Source: an uncultured Sulfurovum sp.
GTDB taxonomy: Bacteria > Campylobacterota > Campylobacteria > Campylobacterales > Sulfurovaceae
Assembly (NCBI GenBank): GCA_902727895.1
Contig: CACVAP010000011.1
Coordinates: 69,800-133,799 of the forward strand
Direction of reading: 5' to 3'
DNA length: 64,000 bases
Shown piece by piece: positions 31,615 to 42,460 of this stretch (position 1 is its first letter; each line of letters begins with the position of its first letter). The notes below the pieces were generated by a model. The model was not told where the DNA came from and made no database searches. It saw only the letters and a list, made by a program, of their open reading frames with translations. A program made the position numbers and the translations under genes.

Positions 31615-32745
31615 ATGAAAATCAACCAACTTACTACCCTCACCCTCTCTCTTCTTTTATTTACAGCATGTAGTACCAAAACAATTAAACCAATCGAAAA
31701 TAATACTAGCATTCAATCAAATATTGGTATCCAACCAGCTGCTATCCCGACCATAGCTACAGAGACAGCAGACAACTCTTCAGGTTTAGGTGGAGACTTT
31801 GCAGGAAATTGGAAACTAACAGAATTTATTGAAAGAATGCATAATCAACATAACTTTGAATACGCATACTTATATACACTTTTTTCAAATGCTAGAGATA
31901 CAAACCAAATTGTTGAGCCATGTAAAACAAGTGTAGATAGTAGTGGTAACTGTATTGTCAAAGTAAAACCAAAAGGTAAATGGGACAGATACAGAGGAAT
32001 GTTCATTTATGATCGAAACATTAATCGTGGTGTTGCATTTTGGGAAGAACATGAAGCAACACTTAACCGTGCGTATCAAGAGTATGGGGTGTTACCTGAA
32101 TTTATTATTGGGGTCTTAGGGGTTGAGACAGCTTATGGTGTCAACTTTGGAAAAAAGAGAGTAATAGATGTCTTAACTACCAAAGGAATGCTGGGTGATC
32201 GCCGTGAACGTTTTTACACAAAACAGTTAGAAAAGTTTCTTATTATGACACGAGATTCAAATCTTGATGCATCCGTCCTTATGGGTTCAAATGCTGGGGC
32301 CATGGGTTATGGTCAATTCATTGCCTCTTCATACCTAGCCTTTGCTGTTGACTTTAATGGTGATGGCGTTACAGATTTATGGAATGCAGAAGATGCCATT
32401 GGCTCTATTGCCAATTACTTTGCGATGAATGGATGGAAAAGAAACCTAACGGAGGTTGTTACCCGTGCAAAGTACAAAGGTAATCGTTTTAAAAGACTAA
32501 AAACTGGTTTTAAAACAAAATATTCTCAATATAAACTACGTAAAAAACATAACATTACTGCCAGAAATAAATTAAAATACAAAGGTCCAGTTTCTTTAAT
32601 TAAACTACCAAAATACAGCTATGATGAACTTTGGTTTGGAACACATAACTTTAGAGTTATCACTACTTATAATCATAGTACTTTTTATGGAATGGTTGTT
32701 TATCAGTTGGGACAAGAGGTTAAGAGGAAGAGGTATGGGAGGTAA
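31615..32745 (+). CDS. mltB: MltB-type lytic murein transglycosylase, lipoprotein
   Basis: A 376-residue enzyme that cuts peptidoglycan glycan strands with formation of 1,6-anhydro ends. The signal ends in a lipobox (LLLFTACS, Cys about 19), so it is anchored as a lipoprotein. The SLT_2 domain has the catalytic Glu in IIGVLGVETAYGVNFGK, followed by MGSNAGAMGYGQFIASSYLA, WNAEDAIGSIANYFAMNGW and a C-terminal LWFGTHNFRVITTYNHS block. Single gene; not part of the pilus operon, which converges on it from the other side. Confidence 0.92.
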   Translation: MKINQLTTLTLSLLLFTACSTKTIKPIENNTSIQSNIGIQPAAIPTIATETADNSSGLGGDFAGNWKLTEFIERMHNQHNFEYAYLYTLFSNARDTNQIVEPCKTSVDSSGNCIVKVKPKGKWDRYRGMFIYDRNINRGVAFWEEHEATLNRAYQEYGVLPEFIIGVLGVETAYGVNFGKKRVIDVLTTKGMLGDRRERFYTKQLEKFLIMTRDSNLDASVLMGSNAGAMGYGQFIASSYLAFAVDFNGDGVTDLWNAEDAIGSIANYFAMNGWKRNLTEVVTRAKYKGNRFKRLKTGFKTKYSQYKLRKKHNITARNKLKYKGPVSLIKLPKYSYDELWFGTHNFRVITTYNHSTFYGMVVYQLGQEVKRKRYGR

Positions 32746-32861: not shown

Positions 32862-35687
32862 CTATCTAACTTGAAACACAACTTCATTAGTAAATTCAGC
32901 CCATCTGTTGTCTTCATCTGTTAAGTAAATAGCTTTTGTTGCGCCCATTCCCAAAGTATTGAGTTGAGTACTATTTACACCTTGAGCCAATAAATACTCT
33001 TTAACACTATTTGCGCGTCTATGAGAGAGTTCCATATTGTATTCTTCCGACCCTTTTTTATCAGTATGTCCAATAATATCTATTTTTAATTCTTTATACT
33101 GATTAAGTACTTTTGATAATTTATTTAACTTCTCTTCTTCATTTCCTGTTATAGCATAAGAATTACTTTCAAAATAGATATTTTTCAATACATTTTGAAC
33201 TACTTGACTGACACTCTTTTTACTTTTTTTGTTATAAACTAAATGCTTTTTAACTTCTTCCTTTTCAGGCATTTCTATGTAAACCTTACCCATATCCATA
33301 AGACTCTCTTCTTCTCCCTCTTTTATGAAAAATTGATGCCGTGCAACCCCTGTGTATTCTCTCTCTTTTGTAAAGGTAATGTTAAATGCTCCTACCCCCA
33401 CATGATTAATTATAAACTCACCTTTATCATTAGTAAAACTGGTGCTTCTCTCTCCAGTCTCAGCATTAAAAATTTTGAAAGCTTTATGGACTAAAGGTTT
33501 CCTTGTCTCTTGCTCATAAAATGAACCTTTTATAGAATAAAAGTTCTCAACAGCCACATCCATAATAGCACCAGTTTTATAATTGGTTAAAAACTTCTGT
33601 TTTGAATCTCTTAAGTCCACCCCAAAATCAAGAGCTGATTCATCAATGAAAAGTTCTCTTTCAGAATAATCACTTACGTCAATGGCATAAGTATCATAAA
33701 CAAATTCATCTACTTCATGGTAGCCATTTAGTCCTAAAGAGGTTTCTAATTTATCATCATTGTCCACAATGACAAAACTAGAGTTTATAGGTGCTGTCAA
33801 AGTTACTGTTGTTCCTGCGAATACAAAGCCTGTTGCCATTTGCAAACCAATAGTCTCATTCTTTTGTGCGTTGCTTTTAATATCACTTAAAAGGTAAGAA
33901 GCATCTATTCTAAACTTCTCATTATTCATATCGGCTCTTACATTATAGTTTGTTGCTTGTTTATTACTTTCAAACTGTAAGTCACTGTTGACCCCATAAC
34001 GACCTTCTGCATTTCGTCGTAAATTAAGTTGATGTTTTTGATCACTCAAATAGCTCACATACCGTGCATTATAACGATTACCAAATCTATAATCTATAGT
34101 CGCATAGATTTGAGTATCATCAGTTTGTCCTTCTTTTGTTATTTGATCGAGGTTCAACTCTGTTGACAATGCTCCAAAGTTTTTACGGAGTACCACACCA
34201 TATTTATCTTCGTTTTCATCATCTCTATCATAAGATGAAGCTGAAACACCCATAGAAACACCCATACCGACTTGACTGTACAAACTACCTCTATAAAGAG
34301 TAGAAGCTTGACTTTGACTATTCCCTAAAATTGCATATTTAGCATCTATCTCTTCATAACCCAAGTTTATCGTGACTTCTCCTAGGTTTGTTCTATAGTC
34401 TAGCCCTTTTTTATATCCAACAGCATCTTCACTTTTACTACTTACCACATACGGATTGAACAATCCAAAGTTTGTACCAATAAGCAGTTCAGCACTTCCT
34501 GCTAAATACTCCTCACCTGTCTGAAAACCTGTCTCAACTGTTACAGAATCTAAGAGTCCATACTCAACATAAGCCGAAGCCACTCTTCGTTGTTTCTTAT
34601 AAATCCATTCATTCTCTAGTTGTTCACTCTCTATCCCAACACCTGCTCCATATCGTGCTAAGCCTTTTTTGAGTACTTCAGAATAAGAGAAGTCATTAAA
34701 CTCAATGGTTTCTATTTTTCCTCCATTTTCAATGACTACCAATCGTACACGATTCAGTCCACTTGGTAAATTTAAGTCAAAAAGGTTGTGTGTTCCTCCT
34801 GCTAAATTTAAAGCATTACGGTAACGGTCATTAACATAAATCTCTACCCTACTTCGGTTTTGTATGAAAAACTCATGAGAGTTAATACGGGTAATATTTT
34901 GGGTATAACCCGAACCAATATTCCAAATTTTCTCTACCCCAACCCCTAAAGCATTTACAAATGACATTCGGTCATGTGCTGGTAAACTAATGTCTCCTGC
35001 TTGGTAACGTAACTGATTTTCCACATCATCAGTTACAACTCTAAAACGTCCTTTGGTGACTTCGTTCTCTTCATCATTGTATTGTAGTCGTCCCTCTAGT
35101 ACAAAACCGTGTACATTTAAATGAACATCTGAAGAGAGGTTAAATGCATTTTTCTCAAAACCGTTTGAACCATTCTTATTATATTGTTGGTTAAGATAAA
35201 AGTTCATGCCTCCTGAATAGTTTGTAGGAAGAACTGAACCATTAACATCTCTTGCTCGTCCAGACCTGTTAAAGTTCACAAGAGAAGCTTTCTTAAGATT
35301 TACAGGTAAAAAAACTTTAAGTAAAATATTTTTACGATCATACTCTGTTTTTATACCCATTTGTTCCAATGCTTTTAGAGGAGTAAAACCATTACTATCA
35401 ATCTGAACCACATATTGTGATTGAAACTCTTCTTTCATAAGTGAGCGAAGATACTTCACCGTATCTTCTGTCAATAAAATGTTTTCCTTATTATCAATCT
35501 TAACAAAGACTTCATCTTGTAGAATATCATTCACTTTTAAAGGTAAATAAAACTCTTTACTTTGAGCTTTGTTTTTAGACATTTTTGCAAAAAGCTTCTC
35601 TTCGAGTATTTTTCTTTTTTCTGCCATGCTCATTTGGGCATGTAAAACATTGATGGTAATAAGTGAAAGGAGTATAATATTTTTCAT
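32862..35687 (-). CDS. Chaperone-usher outer-membrane usher fused to C-terminal OmpA domain
   Basis: A 941-residue protein with signal peptide (to about residue 17). Residues about 170-720 are an outer-membrane usher barrel with a plug region: FIQNRSRVEIYVNDRYRNAL, LFDLNLPSGLNRVRLVVIEN and FNDFSYSEVLKKGLARYGAG fit the usher family that exports and assembles pilins. About 725-810 is a carboxypeptidase-regulatory-like beta domain (KGSFYEQETRKPL, TNDKGEFIINHVGVGAF). Residues 836-941 are an OmpA/MotB peptidoglycan-binding domain (NIYFESNSYAITGNEEEKL, IDIIGHTDKKGSEEYN, LSHRRANSVKEYLLAQGV). Known ushers I can recall lack the last domain. It is the last gene of the pilus operon and starts inside the TAATG junction with the tip-like subunit. 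Confidence 0.85.
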   Translation of the reverse strand: MKNIILLSLITINVLHAQMSMAEKRKILEEKLFAKMSKNKAQSKEFYLPLKVNDILQDEVFVKIDNKENILLTEDTVKYLRSLMKEEFQSQYVVQIDSNGFTPLKALEQMGIKTEYDRKNILLKVFLPVNLKKASLVNFNRSGRARDVNGSVLPTNYSGGMNFYLNQQYNKNGSNGFEKNAFNLSSDVHLNVHGFVLEGRLQYNDEENEVTKGRFRVVTDDVENQLRYQAGDISLPAHDRMSFVNALGVGVEKIWNIGSGYTQNITRINSHEFFIQNRSRVEIYVNDRYRNALNLAGGTHNLFDLNLPSGLNRVRLVVIENGGKIETIEFNDFSYSEVLKKGLARYGAGVGIESEQLENEWIYKKQRRVASAYVEYGLLDSVTVETGFQTGEEYLAGSAELLIGTNFGLFNPYVVSSKSEDAVGYKKGLDYRTNLGEVTINLGYEEIDAKYAILGNSQSQASTLYRGSLYSQVGMGVSMGVSASSYDRDDENEDKYGVVLRKNFGALSTELNLDQITKEGQTDDTQIYATIDYRFGNRYNARYVSYLSDQKHQLNLRRNAEGRYGVNSDLQFESNKQATNYNVRADMNNEKFRIDASYLLSDIKSNAQKNETIGLQMATGFVFAGTTVTLTAPINSSFVIVDNDDKLETSLGLNGYHEVDEFVYDTYAIDVSDYSERELFIDESALDFGVDLRDSKQKFLTNYKTGAIMDVAVENFYSIKGSFYEQETRKPLVHKAFKIFNAETGERSTSFTNDKGEFIINHVGVGAFNITFTKEREYTGVARHQFFIKEGEEESLMDMGKVYIEMPEKEEVKKHLVYNKKSKKSVSQVVQNVLKNIYFESNSYAITGNEEEKLNKLSKVLNQYKELKIDIIGHTDKKGSEEYNMELSHRRANSVKEYLLAQGVNSTQLNTLGMGATKAIYLTDEDNRWAEFTNEVVFQVR

Positions 35688-36610
35688 TAGTTAGCACTCA
35701 CCGTTACATTGATGACAGCTTTATACTCTCCTGCAATAAGTGAACCTGTTAAACTCTCAGTTATAAACCTAAATACTCCTACCTTTGTACCATTCTTCTT
35801 ACCTGTCATAATGGTAAAGTATTCATTATTATTAATACTCTGTTCTGTAGCACCAATTTTAGTATAATAGTAACTCATATCTATCTTGTAATTATTATCA
35901 ACTTGACTAATCAAATCAGAGGTCTCAAACTTTATTTGAAAATTTCCATTGGTATTATTTTTAACAAAAACATCTTTCACTTGTTCATTGCTTGTGTTTA
36001 ATGTAAAGTTTCCATAATCTACCAAACCATCTTTAAAAACTTTACCCGTTTTATAAGTAGCCAAGTTTTCAAATCCTACCATACTCACTTGTTCTACATT
36101 TCCACTAGCACTAAGCGTAGCTGTCGGAGAGTCACTCGCATTACCTAAATTAACACTTATATTTTTAGAAAGAGCATAGCTCCCTGCTGTTTGAGTATCA
36201 GCAAGAGAATTTACTTTGATGCGAACATAACCTACAATACTAGTACCATCACGTCCACCAGCAGCAGCAGACAAAAGTGTAAAGGATTGATTTTCAGTTA
36301 TTGCACTCTCTACATCATTAACAACATAATAAAAAGCTGTACTTATAACTTCATTTACACTATTACGTAAAGTAGAAATATTAGCCATAGTCATTTTAAC
36401 TTCATCCATAGAATCAGAAAAAACATAAATAGGAATATCTACAACTTTTAAATTTGTATCAGCTACTTTCATGCTTGTAGAAAAGTTAACATTCATAGCA
36501 TCCACACGAAGAGTATCTCCTGAACAAGCTGATTGAGCAGTTGTCCCAACTTCCAAACAAGCCCCAAAAAGGTTAAGAGAAAGTAAAGTAAGTAGTAGTA
36601 ATTTTTTCAT
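35687..36610 (-). CDS. Two-domain pilus subunit, probable tip adhesin
   Basis: A 307-residue secreted protein. I start at 36610 because AAGGA lies 7 nt upstream and the signal peptide MKKLLLLTLLSLNLFGAC follows; the frame extends 12 codons further. Two pilin-like beta domains are visible: about 20-165 and 166-307. Each has paired alternating strands, a central FVKxNxNG-type turn (DVFVKNNTNGNFQIKF in the second) and an AGxYxxxINVTV closing strand (AGEYKAVINVTVSAN at the end, AGSYALSKNISVNLG in the first). The two-domain design is that of CS1-type tip proteins. The stop overlaps the usher ATG, so the two are made together. Ligand unknown. Confidence 0.72.
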   Translation of the reverse strand: MKKLLLLTLLSLNLFGACLEVGTTAQSACSGDTLRVDAMNVNFSTSMKVADTNLKVVDIPIYVFSDSMDEVKMTMANISTLRNSVNEVISTAFYYVVNDVESAITENQSFTLLSAAAGGRDGTSIVGYVRIKVNSLADTQTAGSYALSKNISVNLGNASDSPTATLSASGNVEQVSMVGFENLATYKTGKVFKDGLVDYGNFTLNTSNEQVKDVFVKNNTNGNFQIKFETSDLISQVDNNYKIDMSYYYTKIGATEQSINNNEYFTIMTGKKNGTKVGVFRFITESLTGSLIAGEYKAVINVTVSAN

Positions 36611-36664: not shown

Positions 36665-37381
36665 CTACTTCTTTTCTAATCTCATGCTCACTATTTTGTC
36701 TACAGGAACAGAAGTAATATTTTTTAAATGAAATGTGTTTGTTTTTCCTGCTAGGACTCTTCTGAATTCTGCTTCTTTTAAATCTTCTAAGGTTAGTTTA
36801 TATTCATTTTTTCCAGTGCTTATCAAGAAATGATAATCCTTTGGGTTTGGAACAACACTTGCTGTACCACTATTTGAAATGATTAATGTAACTTCATTCA
36901 TGGACTTATTTATAGAGTTTATTTTTAATTTAGGTTTAGAATTTTCTTCTTTTACAAATAAGAGACCCTCATAAGAAAATCTCATTTTAATTTGTGCATT
37001 AATTTTTCCTTTATTTTCATTATTTTCATTATCACTAACATCAATATCTAGCTCTTTTGCAATAACACGATAAACTTCTTCTGTTTCAGGTAATTTTTGT
37101 CCCATATATCGAACACGTATTGATTTTGTTTCACCAGCATCCAATACAAATTTAGTAGGATAAGCCTCAACCATTTTAGTCTCTTCTCTTTCTTCTTTAT
37201 TCTTAACTGTGCTTAAAACTTTTAAAATAGAAAAAGTTGAAGCAACGGGTTCCTTAGAAGGATTAGTAATTTTAAAAATTACATTTCTTGTTCGTTTACT
37301 GTCTAATGTTTGTATCAAAGGGGATAAACTTACAGCGAATAGTAAATTTGACATCATAAATAGTGAAAATAATACTTTCAT
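36665..37381 (-). CDS. PapD-like periplasmic pilus chaperone
   Basis: A 238-residue protein with signal peptide MKVLFSLFMMSNLLFA. It has the two immunoglobulin-like domains of pilus chaperones: domain 1 with NVIFKITNPSKEPVAST and FVLDAGETKSIRVRYMGQ before EVYRVIAKELDID, domain 2 with LKINSINKSMNEVTLIISNSG and the closing KNITSVPVDKIVSMRLEKK. It would cap the exposed groove of pilin subunits in the periplasm by donor-strand complementation and deliver them to the usher. The short loop between the F1 and G1 strands would suit the alternate (CS1-type) chaperones. Sits between the pilins and the tip subunit. Confidence 0.82.
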   Translation of the reverse strand: MKVLFSLFMMSNLLFAVSLSPLIQTLDSKRTRNVIFKITNPSKEPVASTFSILKVLSTVKNKEEREETKMVEAYPTKFVLDAGETKSIRVRYMGQKLPETEEVYRVIAKELDIDVSDNENNENKGKINAQIKMRFSYEGLLFVKEENSKPKLKINSINKSMNEVTLIISNSGTASVVPNPKDYHFLISTGKNEYKLTLEDLKEAEFRRVLAGKTNTFHLKNITSVPVDKIVSMRLEKK

Positions 37382-37472: not shown

Positions 37473-38024
37473 TTAATTTACTGATACCGTTACATTTAAA
37501 GCAGTGGTGTAATCATCAGCCATATATATAGTATTTAGTATGTTTGCACGTGGCTTTATTTCAAATGTACCTATTGAAGCTTGTCCATCATTTACACCTG
37601 TTACTAAATCAACATATTCTGTATTACCAAGTTCAGGATCATATCTAGAACCATTAATATAGTATTTTATAGCTATGCATGGTTTACTACTAGGATTAGA
37701 AACTGGACAAATATATCCATCTTTATTACTAGGATCTTCTAATTTAATACTAACTGTATTGTTAGTATTGGTTTTTACATAAATGTTTCGAGAAACATTA
37801 GTAAATTCACCTTGTCCTCCAACATCACCCAAATCTATGTTACTAGATACACTATCTTTGAATGTTCCTACTCCTGAAACTGCTTCAGTAAGAGGGTCAG
37901 AAACTTGTTCAAAACTAACAATTGCATCTACTAGAACCACACCTGTAACAACTATTTGATTATCAGCTGAAAAAAGTGGAGTCATAGGAAGTAACATGGA
38001 AAGTACTATTAAAGTTTTTTTCAT
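37473..38024 (-). CDS. CS1-type pilin subunit (second)
   Basis: A 183-residue exported subunit with signal peptide ending at SADN. The mature start QIVVTGVVLVDAIVSFEQV parallels the N-terminal donor strand of CS1/CFA pilins, with RNIYVKTNTNNTVSIKLEDP in the middle and ADDYTTALNVTVSVN at the end. It has one Cys pair (GYICPVSNPSSKPCIAIKYY), likely a disulfide absent from the first pilin. It follows that pilin by 33 nt and is 91 nt before the chaperone. Could be a minor subunit or a second major pilin. Confidence 0.75.
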   Translation of the reverse strand: MKKTLIVLSMLLPMTPLFSADNQIVVTGVVLVDAIVSFEQVSDPLTEAVSGVGTFKDSVSSNIDLGDVGGQGEFTNVSRNIYVKTNTNNTVSIKLEDPSNKDGYICPVSNPSSKPCIAIKYYINGSRYDPELGNTEYVDLVTGVNDGQASIGTFEIKPRANILNTIYMADDYTTALNVTVSVN

Positions 38025-38057: not shown

Positions 38058-38624
38058 TTAGTTTACTGCAATAGTCACGTTAACCGTTTTTGTATAATCA
38101 CCAGCAACTTGTAAGTCAGCAATAGCAGCAGGAGTAATTAAAAATCCAGCAGCATCTGCATTTACTTTTGCTGTACCAGCATTTGTAGACCCTGCAGCTA
38201 AAACAGTAAATGGAGTATTCGCTGCTATAGCTGTACCAGCATAAGTATAGGCAAGTTCAATCTTTTCATCAGCATCAGCAGTAGCAGCATGTGGAGCTGT
38301 ATTTACCATAGCACCAACATCATCAAGTGCCATTCTTACTCCACCATTAGCATTTGATTTTACAAACACATCTCTATGAATCGCTGTTAGGTCAGTACCA
38401 GCCGTAGTCGGACCAAACGCAATAGCATTTAATGCATTGTCTACAAAAGTACCTACTGTATTAGCTCCGATACCCGTACCTCCCAAAGTTGAACCTCCAA
38501 CACTAGCAAAACCAACGTAACCATCAACATTTACAGTAGCTGTTACAACAATCTTATTTGCATCAGCCTGAACCCCAGTACTCATTAAAGCAGCAATGGC
38601 TGCAATTGATAATAATTTTTTCAT
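38058..38624 (-). CDS. CS1-type major pilin
   Basis: An Ala/Thr-rich 188-residue subunit. The frame extends 28 codons upstream, but AAAGGA sits 7 nt before the ATG at 38624, giving MKKLLSIAAIAALMSTGVQA and a mature start DANKIVVTATVNVDGYVGF. The pattern matches CS1/CFA major pilins: N-terminal VTATVxxD strand, then RDVFVKSNANGGVRMALDD, FTVLAAGS, and a final GDYTKTVNVTIAVN. No cysteines. First gene of the operon and best candidate for the shaft. A -10-like TATAGT lies near 38675 on the minus strand. Confidence 0.78.
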   Translation of the reverse strand: MKKLLSIAAIAALMSTGVQADANKIVVTATVNVDGYVGFASVGGSTLGGTGIGANTVGTFVDNALNAIAFGPTTAGTDLTAIHRDVFVKSNANGGVRMALDDVGAMVNTAPHAATADADEKIELAYTYAGTAIAANTPFTVLAAGSTNAGTAKVNADAAGFLITPAAIADLQVAGDYTKTVNVTIAVN

Positions 38625-39156: not shown

Positions 39157-39831
39157 ATGGAAATCTTAAAATTTAATAAACTATTTTTTTCAGGAAAAGA
39201 AAGTGAAATATTAAATTTTCAAACTTATTTTGAAGAAATAATCTTACTTGAAAATAACCAAGAAATTCTAACTTTTCCTTTTAGCACAACTAAAATAATC
39301 TTTATGAACTGTGATGAAATAAGTAACAATTGTATTCAAGTTATTAAGGAAATTCGTCAATATGACAGAAAAAGTATTATTATAATAATGAGTGAAAAAA
39401 AAGATATAGATACTTTGTTTAATGTTCTACCTCTTCATCTATCTGGATATATACAAAAACCTTTTAAAAAAAATAATCTACAAAAATTATTGGAAAACAT
39501 TGTAAAGGATTTGTCTTATTTAGACAATGATAAAAATATACAACTTAAAAACAACTATAGTTTGAACCTTAATACCTTAACACTACTTAATGAAAAGCAT
39601 AATATTATTAAACTAACAAAGAAGGAAAGAAAGCTTATTCAGATTCTTATAAACAAGAAAAACAATTATGTAACATCTGAAACTCTTGAATATACTATAT
39701 GGGAAGAGGACTCACTAAAACAAGATTGTAACTTACGACTAAAACACCTCATCTATTGCCTAAGAAAAAAATTACCTGATGCAAGCATTATTAATACTTA
39801 TAACATAGGCTATAAGTTTGTTACTAATTAA
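39157..39831 (+). CDS. Orphan OmpR-type response regulator with degenerate receiver
   Basis: A 224-residue protein. Residues 1-120 form a CheY-like receiver: beta strands KIIFMN (46-51), SIIIIMSE (73-80) and GYIQKPF (97-103) with the conserved Lys101-Pro102. But the acidic pair normally after strand 1 is missing (LKFNKLFFSG) and the phosphorylated Asp position reads Asn51, so ordinary phosphorelay seems lost. Residues 125-224 are an OmpR/PhoB winged helix (KLTKKERKLIQILINKK, LRLKHLIYCLRKKLPDASI, NTYNIGYKFV). No histidine kinase gene is near. AAGGAAG precedes the ATG. It is divergent from the pilus operon and flanked by TTAGTGTAA pairs, which are its likely targets. Confidence 0.85.
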   Translation: MEILKFNKLFFSGKESEILNFQTYFEEIILLENNQEILTFPFSTTKIIFMNCDEISNNCIQVIKEIRQYDRKSIIIIMSEKKDIDTLFNVLPLHLSGYIQKPFKKNNLQKLLENIVKDLSYLDNDKNIQLKNNYSLNLNTLTLLNEKHNIIKLTKKERKLIQILINKKNNYVTSETLEYTIWEEDSLKQDCNLRLKHLIYCLRKKLPDASIINTYNIGYKFVTN

Positions 39832-40726: not shown

Positions 40727-41554
40727 CTAAAACCTCCAAGCTACCCCAACGTAAGTAGTATAAGATTCCTCTTTTAAGGAAGCAGAAGGTAAAGTATCTC
40801 CAACACGAGAGCTCACAGTTAAGCTGTCGAATTTTTGTTTCCATGCATCTGTTCGTAAATGTAAAGAAAGATTTTTGGAATACTCATATTTGTAAGTAAG
40901 AGCAATTTTTAAACCCAATGCATTTACACTGTCATCTACAAATGAATCTTGAAATTGACCATTAATAGACTCAGACATATCTACTTTTGCCCTACTGTAA
41001 AGCGTACCTACATTAGCAACAAGCATTCCTTTTTCAAAAACTTTTCTTTGGTAAGCTAGAGAAAATGCTAAACCATCTGTCTGATATTTAAAATAACTAA
41101 CATAATGAAAAAAGGAATCATATGTGTCAGAAGCATTTAAACTTGCATATCTATAAATACCATTAAGTCCCCATGACTCTTTTTCATTTTCTAACAAAGT
41201 ATAATTAACATATAAACCGAACTCTTCTTTGTCAATTCTTGCCTGATCATTTAAAGGAGACTGAGTTGTCACCACATACATATTACTCTGAACTTCATCC
41301 ACCAAAAACTTTCCATAAGTTCCTAGTAACCATCTATCATAAACATAAGAAAAACCTAGCGTAGCTTCTAATACATCATAATCAATAGCAGAATCCATCT
41401 CAGAAGAGTGCAACTCAATAAGATATGAACTATATCCTAAGTCAGCATGAATACCCATCCCTTCTACCTTAGAACTTAAGTCTTTAAAGAAACGGTCTTC
41501 GTTAATTTCAGCATTTAACCCTAATGATAATAAACACAATAATAAAAATTTCAT
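40727..41554 (-). CDS. Probable outer-membrane beta-barrel protein
   Basis: A 275-residue protein with signal peptide (MKFLLLCLLSLGLNA) and then alternating amphipathic strands to a C-terminal aromatic end (YTTYVGVAWRF), as expected for a 12- to 14-strand outer-membrane barrel. No specific family recognised. It is 15 nt after the caspase-like lipoprotein gene on the same strand, so the two are probably made together at the outer membrane. Confidence 0.78.
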   Translation of the reverse strand: MKFLLLCLLSLGLNAEINEDRFFKDLSSKVEGMGIHADLGYSSYLIELHSSEMDSAIDYDVLEATLGFSYVYDRWLLGTYGKFLVDEVQSNMYVVTTQSPLNDQARIDKEEFGLYVNYTLLENEKESWGLNGIYRYASLNASDTYDSFFHYVSYFKYQTDGLAFSLAYQRKVFEKGMLVANVGTLYSRAKVDMSESINGQFQDSFVDDSVNALGLKIALTYKYEYSKNLSLHLRTDAWKQKFDSLTVSSRVGDTLPSASLKEESYTTYVGVAWRF

Positions 41555-41569: not shown

Positions 41570-42460
41570 TTAAATAGGTGGGCTAAAGGCTATTGGTGCT
41601 TTTTTAGGAACAAGCCAAATATTTTTTTCCAATCCCATTATCTCAGAGCTAACCTGTTGACGATTACTCTCTTCTAAAATACTAACACGAACCCGTCTAA
41701 ACACTTCTCCAATGGGAATCTCTTCATCATCTAAATATTTCATAAGTGCATAAGTGTAAGCACCGTGTCCATCATCATGAAGACTATAATCTTTTGCTCT
41801 TTGATTACGCTCAGTGGCATAAGAAACTAAAGTTGAAGGAGGTAATTTATAGCTATACTTTTCTTTCTCCACAAAAACTTGAACATCTTCTTTAACCCCA
41901 TCATCATAACGAATGGTAGTACCCCTAAACCCTTCTAAACTAAAGTTACCTCTAAAGTTATTTTTATTTTGAAGCTTCTCATTTTCTACAATATAATGCT
42001 CTTGATAATCTCTACATACATCCAGAGCAATAATGCTATGTCGTGCTTTAACCTTTTTTAAAAAGTCATAAAACTTAAAAATACTGACTAATGTTGGTCG
42101 ATCTTTATCGGTCATCATTAAAAACTGTTCTGAACTATTTTTATGAAGCGTGTTTCCATGCCCAGCAAAGTAAATAAATACAAGGGTATTGTTCGCTTCA
42201 ATGTTACCTTTTAACCCCTCTAAGGTTTCGTTCAATTGATCTAAAGTACTATCAAGAAGCAAAGTAACATCAAAACCTATATTTTCTAATGTCTCTTTGA
42301 TCCCTATTGCGTCACTTATAGGGTTCTTTAACGTATTTCCTCTATAGTCTTGGTTACCAATCACCAAAGCAACTCTATTAATGGGTACTTTCTGGACTTT
42401 TGGCTCAATATAACACCCTGTCAACACAATAATAAACAAAAACATCACTATTTGTCTCAT
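41570..42460 (-). CDS. Caspase-like (peptidase C14) lipoprotein
   Basis: A 296-residue protein with lipobox LTGC (Cys16), hence membrane-anchored. The caspase fold is seen in NRVALVIGNQDY, VFIYFAGHGN with catalytic His101 and SIIALDVCRDY with catalytic Cys149; the second motif differs from the common LDACR by Val. A caspase-like basic pocket (GFRGTT, LVSYATERNQ, HGAYTYALMKYL) follows. Bacterial members cleave after basic residues in some cases; target here unknown. Divergent with the small lipoprotein at 42521, 60 nt away. The ribosome-binding site contains a run of seven G (42468-42474). Confidence 0.86.
   Translation of the reverse strand: MRQIVMFLFIIVLTGCYIEPKVQKVPINRVALVIGNQDYRGNTLKNPISDAIGIKETLENIGFDVTLLLDSTLDQLNETLEGLKGNIEANNTLVFIYFAGHGNTLHKNSSEQFLMMTDKDRPTLVSIFKFYDFLKKVKARHSIIALDVCRDYQEHYIVENEKLQNKNNFRGNFSLEGFRGTTIRYDDGVKEDVQVFVEKEKYSYKLPPSTLVSYATERNQRAKDYSLHDDGHGAYTYALMKYLDDEEIPIGEVFRRVRVSILEESNRQQVSSEIMGLEKNIWLVPKKAPIAFSPPI

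Follow-up and report, generated by a model that had tools for sequence, protein, structure and literature searches.

A chaperone-usher pilus usher fused to an OmpA domain in an uncultured Sulfurovum: a proposed built-in peptidoglycan anchor

Results

An operon that ends in an usher-OmpA fusion gene

The window, by which we mean the whole 64,000-nucleotide stretch of DNA analysed (contig CACVAP010000011.1 of an uncultured Sulfurovum sp., assembly GCA_902727895.1), carries on its minus strand a five-gene operon in the order pilin-pilin-chaperone-tip-usher. The last gene, which runs from an ATG at 35687 to a stop at 32864-32862, encodes an usher with a C-terminal OmpA/MotB domain. The original prediction had given its coordinates and its length correctly, and we add that it reads on the minus strand. 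The five genes are:

38058-38624, minus strand: pilin-like subunit 1 (start ATG at 38624, 188 aa); resembles pilin 2 and the tip protein, and found at the same place in the relatives
37473-38024, minus strand: pilin-like subunit 2; 30% identical to pilin 1 (E 3e-15), with no family match
36665-37381, minus strand: periplasmic pilus chaperone; PF00345 PapD_N, E 1e-6, over the cut-off
35687-36610, minus strand: two-domain tip-like subunit, 307 aa from its ATG; BLASTP relates its domain 2 to both pilins (pilin 1, E 2e-10; pilin 2, E 3e-7); kept in three relatives
32862-35687, minus strand: usher-OmpA fusion gene, 941 aa; open reading frame, with hhalign matches to PF00577-positive ushers and a PF00691 match (both detailed below)

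The stop codon of the tip gene overlaps the start codon of the usher gene (TAATG), and the chaperone is the single PapD_N match in the genome. The two-domain protein, which matches no Pfam family or solved structure, is read here, by analogy, as a putative tip subunit; profiles of the pilins and of the tip protein found nothing in the PDB.

Divergent from the operon, across an AT-rich gap of about 530 bases, lies an OmpR-type response regulator (39157-39831, plus strand), a candidate regulator of the operon. Further along, on the minus strand, a caspase-like protein with a lipoprotein-like start (41570-42460; Peptidase_C14, E 3e-27) adjoins a 275-aa protein (40727-41554) that looks like an outer-membrane barrel and has no Pfam family match. 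On the other side, an MltB-type lytic transglycosylase (31615-32745, plus strand; PF13406, E 1e-73) is convergent with the fusion gene.

A complete but divergent usher

The Pfam usher model (PF00577) has no match in the fusion protein or anywhere in the genome, and the TcfC plug model (PF16967) gives a weak one, to residues 273-323 (E 2e-4, 21 bits against a cut-off of 29.4). Since the missing PF00577 match would by itself speak against the usher barrel of the original prediction, usher identity was tested independently, with ushers gathered by homology from plasmid records (Leptolyngbya, Niveispirillum, Photobacterium, and Sphingobium) and from other Campylobacterota genomes. In a Pfam scan of eight ushers (two relatives with the fusion and six tail-less proteins), PF00577 matched all six tail-less ones. 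A profile of the window's family aligned unambiguously by hhalign with six PF00577-positive ushers at a probability of 100 (E 2e-44) over 751 columns, and BLASTP aligned the fusion protein with the Leptolyngbya usher (L050) over 814 columns (E 2e-38). When the profile was built from the window protein and five homologues and compared with the PDB, four sequences fell below E 0.01, all of them FimD-type ushers (E 4e-4). Against single FimD or EcpC sequences hhalign was insignificant and BLASTP weak. Because profile-profile homology is clear, we take the PF00577 miss as a limit of model sensitivity and not as absence of an usher; the predicted barrel thus stands on homology, while the Pfam match that had been expected for it did not appear.

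The domain boundaries of FimD, as generally known from its structure, were transferred to the fusion protein through an alignment of 12 ushers. The layout of the protein is:

35637-35687, minus strand: putative signal peptide, residues 1-17; opens with a few basic residues, then a hydrophobic run and LHA/Q (from sequence)
35256-35552, minus strand: usher N-terminal periplasmic domain (NTD), residues ~46-144; FimD projection
34929-35216, minus strand: usher barrel part 1, residues ~158-253; FimD projection
34671-34928, minus strand: usher plug, residues ~254-339; PF16967 match, projection, and identity
33801-34670, minus strand: usher barrel part 2, residues ~340-629; FimD projection
33534-33800, minus strand: usher CTD1, residues ~630-718; FimD projection
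33267-33533, minus strand: usher CTD2, residues ~719-807; CarboxypepD_reg match shared with tail-less ushers, beta sandwich in the model
33189-33266, minus strand: Lys-rich linker of ~26 residues, ~808-833; alignment
32865-33188, minus strand: OmpA/MotB domain, residues 834-941; PF00691, PDB matches to PA0833 and Pal, Pal/OmpA fold match

With the projected NTD, plugged barrel, CTD1, and CTD2 all placed, the usher is complete. Judged by its sequence, the protein is a complete but divergent chaperone-usher outer-membrane usher. An AlphaFold model of the full 941-aa protein, made from a four-row alignment, had a pLDDT of 34 and was not used for the barrel. The plug is the best-conserved part, at 80% identity to the relatives where the remaining usher domains reach 48-60%, and cysteine is absent from the usher.

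Two other assignments were rejected. Membership of the alpha (CS1/Ecp) usher class was set aside, the TcfC plug match being below the cut-off and the hhalign comparison with EcpC insignificant. The original prediction had also described a regulatory-like beta domain between the barrel and the tail. The alignment identifies it as the ordinary CTD2, and the same weak CarboxypepD_reg match lies at the same place in the tail-less ushers L050 and L053, which rules out an extra regulatory domain before the OmpA part.

The OmpA tail

The tail is a genuine OmpA/MotB domain, joined to CTD2 by the linker. PF00691 matches residues 838-927 (E 4e-23, 82 bits against a cut-off of 27.2), and the tail is also matched by the NCBIfam TpgA model, named peptidoglycan-associated protein; the best solved sequence relatives are PA0833, which ranks first, YiaD, and Pal. 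A model of CTD2 plus tail (pLDDT 65, usable for the OmpA part) has the fold of Pal/OmpA domains, with Z up to 13.4 and with the peptide (DAP)-bound A. baumannii OmpA domain among the matches; the matches listed for this piece were nearly all OmpA domains, and the comparison barely probed CTD2. Thus, the predicted order of usher and then C-terminal OmpA/MotB domain is borne out by profile, PDB, and Pfam matches, the tail residues that had been quoted are present in the sequence, and structure prediction agrees for the OmpA part.

In A. baumannii OmpA, Asp271 and Arg286 contact diaminopimelate, and PA0833 binds peptidoglycan in vitro (PMC5974059). Three residues of the tail sit at the peptidoglycan-contact positions of OmpA and Pal:

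33060-33062, minus strand: D876, the equivalent of A. baumannii OmpA Asp271 by motif position
33036-33038, minus strand: N884, part of the OmpA motif; both full-length relatives have Glu here (alignment)
33015-33017, minus strand: R891, the equivalent of A. baumannii OmpA Arg286 by motif position and alignment

In the true numbering, D876 is the last residue of GHTD and R891 the arginine of the RA pair, so the conserved diaminopimelate-binding Asp and Arg on which the prediction depended are both there. The usual NRRV arginines near the C-terminus are absent from the window's own tail.

OmpA domains also end some very long proteins of the genus (986-1796 aa; L057 726-4091, L060 2484-7874, and L061 1059-4019), which have an N-terminal membrane segment followed by coiled-coil or simple repeats and are possible periplasm-spanning tethers.

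Distribution, origin, and conservation

The five-gene operon occurs in the same order in three more species of the genus (MAGs titled Campylobacteraceae bacterium) and hence in four species in total, which makes four genomes out of 34 in the genus and out of 175 in the family. Two of the three other species (L047 and L048) have the full fusion, at about 54% protein identity to the window protein, and in the third the usher is interrupted by a contig end. The fusion is therefore in frame in three separate genomes, which rules out a separate gene, a frameshift, or an assembly artefact. Apart from these species, a related usher occurs in just four of the 397 genomes surveyed in the phylum. Three of the four genes were read; they stop at 764-792 aa and are tail-less. 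The remaining genome has a 769-aa open frame.

The operon is flanked in the window by leuS and the MltB-type gene and in the relatives by other genes, so it has moved at least once and the adjacency of MltB is probably coincidental. Since the linker can be aligned between the window protein and its relatives (it is only 35% identical), a single fusion event in their common ancestor is favoured.

As far as searched, the fusion is confined to one genus. In plasmids, matches came up in 619 records, but no record reached 80% coverage of the query and the matches listed were to OmpA only; viral contigs held no relative; and a scan of genome contigs used two short N-terminal peptide patterns, carried only by close relatives. 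Because coverage beyond the Campylobacterota consisted of the plasmids, the viral contigs, and this one narrow scan, other lineages may have fusions too. In the literature searched, no usher was described as carrying a wall-binding domain, of the OmpA kind or any other, and to our knowledge no usher with a wall-binding tail has been described.

Between the window protein and its two full-length relatives, identity is 37-38% in the tail and 48-80% in the usher domains. In L047 and L048 the motif GHTD...N...LS..RA has become GYPD...E...IA..RA, which keeps the Asp and the Arg and loses the Thr, Asn, and Ser, and their tails are 8 residues shorter in the C-terminal part. With these losses, and with a tail less conserved than any usher domain, peptidoglycan binding in these two may be weaker or altered. 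Comparison of L047 with L048 shows purifying selection on the tail similar to that on the barrel (dN/dS 0.12 for the OmpA part, 0.15 for the barrel), based on few changes (6 synonymous and 3 non-synonymous). The tail is maintained, yet its ligand contacts may have shifted in the L047/L048 branch.

Discussion

Here, we propose that the fusion protein works as a chaperone-usher usher and has a peptidoglycan anchor built covalently into it, so that load is shared between the barrel and the wall. We give this a probability of roughly 0.6. Of the possible readings, a wall anchor is the simplest, because the identity and order of the domains are right and the diaminopimelate-binding Asp and Arg are present; these are also the parts of the original prediction that held up, its regulatory-like beta domain having proved to be CTD2. 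Placed in the outer membrane, the barrel would work together with the chaperone to polymerise both pilins, with the two-domain tip protein leading. The periplasmic part of the usher would end at CTD2, from which the flexible linker (at most about 8-9 nm when extended) could reach the wall, where the OmpA domain would grip diaminopimelate-containing stem peptides via D876 and R891. Outer-membrane barrel and cell wall would then share the pull on the pilus, and the usher itself would stay fixed at the wall.

In favour of an anchor are the complete usher followed by a tail, the canonical OmpA domain with D876, N884, and R891, the Asp and Arg retained in L047 and L048, the purifying selection on the tail, the operon in four species with the genome's single PapD_N match, the match to the peptidoglycan-binding PA0833, and the parallel with TpgA described below. 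Counting against it are the motif change, the 8-residue loss, and the low tail conservation in L047 and L048, the window's missing NRRV arginines, the few changes behind the dN/dS values, and a fusion found in one genus as far as searched. Other ushers, moreover, FimD among them, retain their pili under load although nothing tethers them to the wall.

What else might the tail do? One option is that it binds the wall for localisation, or for general tethering of the outer membrane to the wall, and not for pilus load. It could hold the usher at chosen sites or help the barrel assemble, which would fit the same sequence evidence, and the genome also has OmpA domains on coiled-coil proteins with an N-terminal membrane segment and no evident role in pili. 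We nevertheless consider this unlikely, as the tail is fused to the one protein that must transmit the pull of the pilus and is kept in every full-length copy of the operon found. Quite unlikely, in our view, is that the tail no longer binds peptidoglycan and is decaying or repurposed, contacting another periplasmic protein or merely folding. Its faster divergence than the usher domains, together with the residues lost in L047 and L048, would agree with decay, but the Asp and Arg are kept in all, selection is purifying as in the barrel, and the window copy is near-canonical. That some other outer-membrane barrel protein, and not a pilus usher, is fused to OmpA is highly improbable: the silence of PF00577 and the poor alignments to single FimD and EcpC sequences would allow it, but the usher profile match is full-length, the PDB profile matches are ushers only, and the same operon has a PapD_N chaperone and pilin-like genes.

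A review on adhesive appendages from 2024 names the outer-membrane usher as what anchors chaperone-usher pili (PMC7616799). It is a mechanical question how such a barrel can resist the pull of a pilus when the membrane around it is fluid, and an usher whose wall-binding tail occurs naturally and can be removed opens this question to experiment. We see the case as evenly balanced for a class of pili in which the means to grip the wall is built covalently into the assembly platform, the chaperone-usher pili of this lineage being wall-moored by design. If true, this would be convergent with the TpgA solution of autotransporter adhesins.

The fusion usher shares its NTD, plugged barrel, CTD1, and CTD2 with the FimD/PapC-type ushers (PF00577) and with the TcfC/EcpC branch (PF16967 plug), and those systems likewise have an operon with a PapD-type chaperone and pilins. 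It differs from both in being too divergent for PF00577, in being free of cysteine, and in having a linker and an OmpA domain after CTD2. The tail, in turn, resembles Pal, YiaD, PA0833, and the C-terminal domain of OmpA in sequence, fold, and the positions of Asp and Arg, but in those proteins the domain hangs on a lipid anchor, a membrane segment, or an 8-stranded barrel, whereas here it hangs on an usher. YeeJ, an inverse autotransporter, is an outer-membrane adhesin reported to bind peptidoglycan (PMC5595812), as we propose for the fusion protein; YeeJ is a monomeric autotransporter and not a pilus usher. Close in function would be the trimeric autotransporter adhesin AtaA of Acinetobacter sp. 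Tol 5, whose accessory periplasmic protein TpgA raises the computed extraction force of the AtaA fibre and reinforces its membrane anchor (PMC13082670). There too the outer-membrane anchor of a fibre is reinforced via a periplasmic OmpA-domain protein, but the reinforcing part is separate and the fibre is an autotransporter, whereas the window protein, fused to a chaperone-usher platform, would unite in one chain the platform and the wall anchor, the job that TpgA does for AtaA.
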